NCBI GenBank assembly: GCA_008373095.1
Contig: RQOP01000052.1
Span: forward strand, 1 to 38,136
Direction of reading: 5' to 3'
From: SAR202 cluster bacterium
Lineage (GTDB): Bacteria; Chloroflexota; Dehalococcoidia; Lucifugimonadales; UBA826
Length of the DNA: 38,136 nt
Shown: positions 31,792 to 38,135 of the stretch, one piece after another
Numbering within the stretch: the stretch's first letter is position 1
Layout of the letters: each line of letters opens with the position of its first letter
The notes under the pieces: generated by a model
The model's input: the letters and a program-made list of their open reading frames with translations, nothing else
Database searches by the model: none
What the model was told of the DNA's origin: nothing
Translations under genes and position numbers: made by a program

Positions 31792-31866
31792 TCCGCAGTA
31801 GCTCAGTGGTAGAGCAATCGGCTGTTAACCGATCGGTCGCTGGTTCGAATCCAGCCTGCGGAGCCA
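31792..31866 (+). tRNA. tRNA-Asn (anticodon GTT), encoded CCA
   Basis: Cloverleaf TCCGCAG TA GCTC AGTGGTA GAGC A ATCGG CTGTTAA CCGAT CGGTC GCTGG TTCGAAT CCAGC CTGCGGA G CCA. Confidence 0.97.
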
Positions 31867-36430: not shown

Positions 36431-37543
36431 ATGAGCCTTAGAGGAAGAGGAGCTATCGTTGGAATCGGTGAGGTGCCAACTCGCCGTATCTATGAAGGAA
36501 GAAGCATGTACGGCCTGTGTGCGGAAGCTGCCGGCATGGCAATAGCAGATGCAGGCATAACAAAAGATGATATTGACGGGTTAGTAACAGATGGGGTTGC
36601 ACTTCCTCCTGCCATAGCTGAATATCTCGACATCAAACCCAATTTTGCAACAGGGGTTTCCATGCAAGGCGCCAGTGGCGCCACAGCTACCATGGTAGCA
36701 ACATCCGCCGTCAGCAGTGGTATATGCAATACCGTACTCGTGGTAATGGGGAATTCCCGACAAGATGCTGAAAGAGCGGGACGTCCAGCAGGTCGAGGAG
36801 CAGCCGGCCCAAGTGTGAGGTCAGAATGGGAAGAGCCTCATGGTATGGCCCCCGGGGCCAATACGGGATATGGCCTTATGTATCGAAGACATATACACGA
36901 ATATGGCACTACAGAAGACCAACTGGCCAAAATGGCTGCAGATCAGAGGTTTAACGCTTTAGAAAACGAAAACGCAGTCTTCAACGGACAGCCCATAAGC
37001 AAAGAAGACGTTCTGAATTCAAGATACATAAACGAGCCATTAAAATTGCTCGAATCAGTCATGCCCTGTGATGGTGCCGCAGCTCTAATTATTACTACGC
37101 CAGAGCGAGCAAAAAACATGAAGAACAAACCCGCATACGTACTTGGGGTAGGGCTGAAACAAGGCGAAGCTAATATTTGGCAAAGAGATAAGTTCACGGA
37201 AACACCGGCGGTTGACTCTGTTCGAAGAGCCTTGGAAATGTCTGGCTATACTCCTAGCGATATAGAATTCGCAGAATTTTATGACTGCTACACCATCTTG
37301 GCTGCAATGTGCATAGAAGATGCTGGGTTGGTAGAGAAAGGAGAAATTGGCCCTTTTTACGAAGAGACGGACACCACATACAAAGGCGATTTCCCTATAA
37401 ATACTGATGGAGGCCAGCTTTCAGGTGGACAACCTGGATTAGCGGGAGGGTTTAGACACGTTATCGAAGGCGCACGGCAAATAATGGGCAAGGCTGGGTC
37501 CCGTCAGGTGGAAAAAAGCGACCTGTGCCTGGTCAACGGTTGA
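36431..37543 (+). CDS. Thiolase-like/lipid-transfer protein; family-like sequence continues in frame past TGA 37541-37543 to TAA 37598-37600
   Basis: GAIVGIGEVPTRRIYEGRSMYGLCAEAAGMAIADAG; YDCYTILAAMCIEDAGL; NTDGGQLSGGQPGLAGGFRHVIEGARQIMG; SD AGGAGG. Confidence 0.93.
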   Translation: MSLRGRGAIVGIGEVPTRRIYEGRSMYGLCAEAAGMAIADAGITKDDIDGLVTDGVALPPAIAEYLDIKPNFATGVSMQGASGATATMVATSAVSSGICNTVLVVMGNSRQDAERAGRPAGRGAAGPSVRSEWEEPHGMAPGANTGYGLMYRRHIHEYGTTEDQLAKMAADQRFNALENENAVFNGQPISKEDVLNSRYINEPLKLLESVMPCDGAAALIITTPERAKNMKNKPAYVLGVGLKQGEANIWQRDKFTETPAVDSVRRALEMSGYTPSDIEFAEFYDCYTILAAMCIEDAGLVEKGEIGPFYEETDTTYKGDFPINTDGGQLSGGQPGLAGGFRHVIEGARQIMGKAGSRQVEKSDLCLVNG

Positions 37544-37630
37544 GGGGGCACTGCGAGCGAAATGTGCTCGTTAGTTCTCGGGTCCGAGAACACACTCTAA
37601 ATCACAAAATACAAATATTGAGGTTTTAAG

Positions 37631-38047
37631 ATGACTTCAGCATATGACAAACCTGTACCTATTCCTGCAAACGAAGATTTAACTAGGCCTTTTTGGGAAG
37701 CCGCTAAACGCAGGGAATTGATCATTCCATATTGTAATTCATGCTCCAACCTATTTTTTTACCCAAGGGAAGTGTGCCCGAACTGCTTTTCCAAAGATTT
37801 AGCTTGGAAAACAATGTCTGGTAAGGGTAGCGTGTATACATACACCCACGTGAGACAGTCAGTACACCCATCGTTTCAGTCAGCAAATGGTCACATTTAC
37901 GCGATAATAGAGTTAGCTGAAGGACCAAGGATGCCGTCCGGAATAGTCGGCTGTGAACCTGAAGAAGTATATGTAGATATGCCCGTGTCCGTGGTTTTTG
38001 AGGACATAACCGAAGAGTCTACACTGGTCCAATTCCAAAAATCATAA
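37631..38047 (+). CDS. DUF35 Zn-ribbon/OB-fold protein, thiolase partner
   Basis: [58 protein letters not shown]: rubredoxin-like CxxC...CxxC plus OB fold. Confidence 0.95.
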
Positions 38048-38060
38048 CAAGCAAGGAATA

Positions 38061-38135
38061 TGGAGCGGAAGACGGGATTCGAACCCGCGACCTTCTCCTT
38101 GGCAAGGAGATGCTCTACCACTGAGCCACTTCCGC
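38061..38135 (-). tRNA. tRNA-Gly (anticodon GCC), encoded CCA
   Basis: Reverse complement GCGGAAG TG GCTC AGTGGTAGA GC A TCTCC TTGCCAA GGAGA AGGTC GCGGG TTCGAAT CCCGT CTTCCGC T CCA. Confidence 0.97.

Follow-up and report, generated by a model that had tools for sequence, protein, structure and literature searches.

Does the thiolase-like gene near one end of the window (the whole stretch of DNA analysed, 38,136 nucleotides from a SAR202 cluster bacterium) stop at its in-frame TGA, or is that codon read? As called from its translation, the ORF at 36431-37543 encodes 370 amino acids and ends ...LCLVNG-TGA, the TGA lying at 37541-37543; after it the same frame reads GGTASEMCSLVLGSENTL-TAA (37544-37600), i.e. 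18 further codons and a TAA at 37598-37600, and the next gene starts at 37631. The original prediction proposed recoding of the TGA, and its coordinates for the TGA, the continuation, the next gene and two downstream hairpins were all confirmed. By comparative genomics, we conclude with a probability of about 0.94 that TGA 37541-37543 is a selenocysteine (Sec) codon. The features of the locus are as follows:

36431 to 37600, + strand: complete CDS of the predicted selenoprotein, 389 residues plus TAA, with a thiolase fold and Sal/Ltp2-like (from the ORF, Pfam, AF2/Foldseek and orthologs)
37286 to 37288, + strand: TGC codon of Cys286 in the YDCY motif, aligned with catalytic Cys304 of the aldolase CtSal; TGA (Sec) in 29/66 orthologs
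37541 to 37543, + strand: TGA, the predicted Sec371 codon, present in 66/66 distinct full-length orthologs
37547 to 37549, + strand: codon of Gly373, aligned with the oxyanion-hole Gly391 of CtSal
37554 to 37570, + strand: H1, proximal SECIS candidate hairpin, CGAGC(GAAATGT)GCTCG, extendable by a few pairs, with its loop ~16-18 nt after the UGA in relatives
37574 to 37591, + strand: H2, distal SECIS candidate hairpin, GTTCTCG(GGTC)CGAGAAC, whose GGUC apical loop starts 37 nt after the UGA
37631 to 38047, + strand: DUF35 protein (zinc ribbon and OB fold, ChsH2-like), a probable partner, directly downstream in most orthologous loci

Conservation of the codon bears directly on whether the TGA is simply the end of the gene. 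A scan of species genomes recovered 15 loci extending across the site, from SAR202, Dehalococcoidia or Chloroflexi assemblies and at 52-100% identity, and all 15 carried the TGA with a closely similar continuation. The ortholog set was then widened by searching 250 genomes of the order, together with samples of the phylum (400) and of the class (393); TGA at codon 371 and the same 18-codon continuation were present in every one of the 66 distinct full-length orthologs, which came from SAR202 and other Dehalococcoidia. Homologs without the TGA run straight through with a sense codon, mostly for Asn, Ser or Thr (Asn in loci L158, L159, L126-L130 and L133-L135; Ser in L105-L107). A genuine stop, whether created by a nonsense mutation or an assembly error or terminating a functional truncated protein, would agree with the use of TGA as an ordinary stop by other ORFs of the window, but we regard it as exceedingly improbable: the TGA and its continuation are kept in many independent assemblies, down to ~52% identity, homologs lacking the TGA are uninterrupted, and truncation would cost the protein its oxyanion-hole Gly373 and the final strand of its fold. 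The single-base nonsense mutation, sequencing error and shortened protein that the original prediction listed as alternatives are contradicted by this conservation across orthologs. It had also allowed that relatives might carry a sense codon and unconserved hairpins; instead, all orthologs have the TGA and their hairpins are conserved, and recoding is strongly supported by the conserved codon, continuation and hairpins together. Judged by inspection only, the extensions past the TGA of other window ORFs of at least 90 amino acids were not coding-like, and we rejected a genome-wide reassignment of TGA, as had been argued before from its use as an ordinary stop.

Two of the homologs with Asn at position 371 (L158 and L159) are nested within the Sec clade, and in L158 the SECIS-like DNA is degraded too; both are apparent Sec-to-Asn reversions. 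No Cys was found at this position (site 2) among the loci read from the order (250 genomes), the phylum sample (400) and the class sample (393), and a Sec site whose homologs offer no Cys alternative is unusual.

Many orthologs contain a second in-frame TGA, at residue 286 (site 1), the Cys of YDCY, which is Sec/TGA in 29 and Cys in 37 of the 66 full-length orthologs. Among full-length copies, Sec286 never occurred without Sec371, and Sec371 was always accompanied by Cys or Sec at 286. On a tree for which the two Sec positions were masked, Sec371 requires three changes, most simply one gain and two losses to Asn, and Sec286 requires about ten between Sec and non-Sec residues (mostly Cys). Repeated exchange between Sec and Cys, the typical partner of Sec, is the usual signature of a selenoprotein; it was seen at site 1, whereas homologs at site 2 show Asn, Ser and Thr, among others. 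Tandem copies of the Sec gene were observed at four loci (L018, L143, L144 and L156), and the L018 tandem consists of a double-Sec copy followed by a Cys286/Sec371 copy.

Stem-loops placed behind a stop codon are known to favour read-through. In the window, the stems of H1 and H2 pair perfectly, and the RNA following the TGA is more stable than its synonymous-codon shuffles (z -2.1, p 0.015), with z reaching -5.1 in close relatives; at site 2, the more distant ‘ILGTE’ group gave no significant difference in this comparison of folding energy, and at site 1 most comparisons gave none either. More was learned from codon conservation and compensatory changes than from the folding energy of the whole region. 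Synonymous identity beyond each gene's own codon usage was scored over the 187 codon columns that allowed it; of the 12 with the greatest excess, 10 belong to the 22 columns that follow the two TGA sites (hypergeometric p ~3e-9). The excess was highest at codons 375 (GCG), 376 (AGC), 385 (TCC) and 383 (CTC); codons 370, 379 and 373 were also among the top 12, as were 295, 292 and 296 behind site 1. Codons 290-296 held ranks 1, 3, 5, 6 and 9 in copies with TGA at site 1 and showed no excess in copies with Cys; the RNA element therefore goes with the TGA.

In double-Sec orthologs, the site-1 hairpin (CUCGAGGC-CGUGU-GCCUCGAAG) places its loop 17 nt downstream of the UGA, and a G-C pair is exchanged for C-G in three sequences. 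The distal GGUC/GGUU hairpin of site 2 is 98% paired over 28 sequences, one compensatory pair being U-A in 14 of them and C-G in 12. Both hairpins exceeded slid controls in the cells paired and shuffled controls in the cells changed on both sides; neither exceeded the control for the number of pairs changed on both sides, because few pairs vary. The proximal hairpin of site 2 occurs in several registers, and in the ‘ILGTE’ group it is strong and the distal one weak. In the published model of the bacterial SECIS element (bSECIS), the loop lies 16-37 nt after the UGA and has a G among its first two positions (PMC13188914), an arrangement found both in H2 of the window, with its GGUC loop at 37 nt, and in the CGUGU loop at 17 nt behind site 1 of double-Sec orthologs. 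The distance of ~37 nt, which the original prediction had held against Sec, lies inside this range, and the folding and covariation analysis it suggested for the region after the TGA bore out a structured RNA (p 0.015 in the window, and the compensatory U-A/C-G exchange in H2).

The genome to which the window belongs is 94% complete and contains the whole set of Sec genes: selA (535 bits), selB (343 bits) and the tRNA-Sec gene selC (UCA anticodon, 65.5 bits), which had been named beforehand as the genes to look for, and selD (389 bits) in addition. Across the order, selA was detected in 201 of 250 genomes and a tRNA-Sec above cut-off in 54 of the 60 sampled, and on these gene counts Sec use looks widespread in this marine order. 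Genomes of the order with the TGA gene had selA in 25 of 30 cases, and the five with no selA detected are 67-87% complete; this co-occurrence is consistent with Sec decoding, but not discriminating, given how common selA is across the order. SelD is a selenoprotein in many bacteria, and that of the window's genome is probably one too, since its gene (L072; C91:32173-33096, minus strand) has an in-frame TGA near the N-terminus (LTELASCAG-U-ASKLSP). In the same genome (C51, L067:7771-13012), selB lies ~1.8 kb upstream of another thiolase-like/DUF35-type pair, with YDSF and GTGG motifs and no Sec. Two ordinary tRNA genes were identified in the window with Rfam, at 31792-31863 (+) and 38064-38135 (-), the latter just behind the DUF35 gene.

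The layout of a stop followed by stem-loops would also suit read-through by an ordinary near-cognate tRNA (e.g. for Trp), in which the stem-loops would promote the synthesis of small amounts of a selenium-free extended protein. We consider this very unlikely, given that Trp never occupies either site in homologs, that the second TGA has exchanged with Cys about ten times on the tree, that the genome carries all four Sec genes, and that the hairpins conform to the bSECIS model. Selenocysteine, ranked as less likely in the original prediction, is instead the best explanation in light of the Sec machinery, the hairpins and the Sec/Cys exchange at site 1. With the TGA conserved, SECIS-like hairpins behind it and the machinery encoded, the gene is therefore predicted to encode a 389-residue selenoprotein. 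SelB and Sec-tRNA(Sec) would decode the TGA, aided by a bacterial SECIS formed by the hairpin or hairpins directly downstream, and translation would stop at the TAA at 37598-37600.

What kind of enzyme would carry this residue? The Pfam domain Thiolase_C_1 spans the TGA, reaching residue 384, and the AF2 model has a pLDDT of 88 and a pTM of 0.90. By both sequence and fold, the closest solved structure is CtSal (PDB 9MYR), a bile-acid side-chain aldolase of Comamonas testosteroni (Foldseek: 38% identity over the alignment, TM 0.87). Catalysis in CtSal relies on Tyr302 and Cys304 of a YDCY motif, and the main-chain nitrogen of Gly391 has been proposed to contribute to its oxyanion hole (PMC12329534). 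In an ungapped alignment, Tyr284 coincides with Tyr302, Cys286 with Cys304 and Gly373 with Gly391, and Sec371 falls at Thr389, two positions ahead of Gly391. Alignment to a classical thiolase of the same genome with hhalign gave a weak score and agrees with this mapping, pairing the CxG cysteine with Sec371 and the nucleophile with a Gly (QGASG against QCSSG). The TGA, previously described as not an obvious catalytic Cys position, thus aligns with the CxG cysteine and stands next but one to the oxyanion-hole glycine of CtSal. A thiolase (acetyl-CoA acetyltransferase) has its nucleophilic Cys in the CxS region, where this protein has Gly, and a normal thiolase function is therefore unlikely. 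Y284-D-C286-Y287 is invariant in sequence set A1. The DUF35 gene, with Pfam matches to both ChsH2 domains, directly follows in the window, as it does in most of the orthologous loci long enough to show it. On fold, the YDCY and Gly residues and the adjacent DUF35 gene, the product is predicted to be a DUF35-linked aldolase-like enzyme of the Sal/Ltp2 type.

CtSal, which acts with the DUF35 domain of Shy, has in common with the SAR202 enzyme the YDCY motif, the Gly at the nucleophile position, a DUF35 partner (a probable one in SAR202) and a GxGG loop with the oxyanion-hole Gly (PMC12329534). It differs in carrying Thr389 at the position of Sec371 in the window, and Cys304 at a position occupied by Sec in many orthologs, and in that its DUF35 domain is fused to a hydratase, whereas in SAR202 it is encoded by a separate gene. 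The steroid aldolase Ltp2-ChsH2(DUF35) (PDB 6OK1) has the same fold and the same DUF35 partnership, but YDHF and a second catalytic Tyr in contrast to YDCY (PMC12329534).

In the proposed chemistry, Sec371 would take the place of the CxG cysteine, on the loop that also supplies the glycine of the oxyanion hole, with Cys286 (in many orthologs Sec286) expected on the opposite side of the substrate; we infer this spatial pairing, with both residues lining the same CoA-thioester substrate. Cleavage of the acyl-CoA C-C bond could then rely on Tyr284 as the base, with the Cys/Sec286-Sec371 pair protonating the enolate, a selenol of low pKa serving as the acid. Given Sec decoding, we put a direct catalytic role for Sec371 at even odds. 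Sec371 might otherwise be half of a redox switch, or of a protective selenenyl-sulfide or diselenide with Cys/Sec286 that guards the essential Cys286 from irreversible oxidation. The presence of Cys or Sec at 286 in every full-length Sec371 ortholog fits such a bond, but the closest characterised relatives, aldolases and thiolases, are non-redox enzymes, CtSal depends for catalysis on its counterpart of residue 286, and the two nested lineages with Asn at 371 would be incapable of forming the bond; given Sec decoding, we hold this role to be possible, at somewhat short of an even chance.

The predicted use of a UGA-Sec codon with a bSECIS directly downstream, the SelA/B/C/D machinery and the Sec/Cys exchange at site 1 are shared with known prokaryotic selenoproteins; the SAR202 enzyme departs from them in that a thiolase-fold enzyme would carry a single Sec or a pair of them in its predicted active site, and in that site 2 exchanges with Asn, not Cys (PMC13188914). 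The 119 prokaryotic selenoprotein (sub)families of the 2026 catalogue, a review whose table includes the families of Haft and Tolstoy 2025, contain no thiolase-fold enzyme or acyl-CoA C-C lyase (PMC13188914). NCBIfam (June 2026) has no model for this selenoprotein, only generic thiolase-domain models that score below their cut-offs. Among the titles and abstracts of open-access literature searched (thiolase, SAR202 or Chloroflexi with selenoprotein), nothing concerned this enzyme, although an unlisted report is possible, and SAR202 and selenoproteins were not mentioned together. The TGA almost certainly encodes a Sec in the predicted active site of an enzyme family for which selenium is so far unreported. 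A fuller proposal, whose chances we see as evenly balanced, is that the thiolase superfamily would gain its first selenoenzyme, a non-redox lyase of acyl-CoA C-C bonds with one or two active-site Sec as acid catalysts, widespread in SAR202 and its class, and with a site-2 Sec that arose from a non-Cys residue (Asn/Ser/Thr) and can revert to Asn.

SAR202 are abundant deep-ocean bacteria, and the locus indicates selenium use in this group. To the known selenoproteins it would add an unlisted fold and a predicted non-redox reaction. Automatic annotation would end these genes at the TGA, after residue 370 or, in double-Sec forms, after residue 285, and so the enzyme would stay hidden. The natural series of orthologs with Sec/Sec, Cys/Sec and Cys/Asn at the two sites lets the role of each Sec be tested, and the pairing of TGA copies that have a SECIS with Cys copies that have none offers a clean natural experiment on the function of bacterial SECIS elements.
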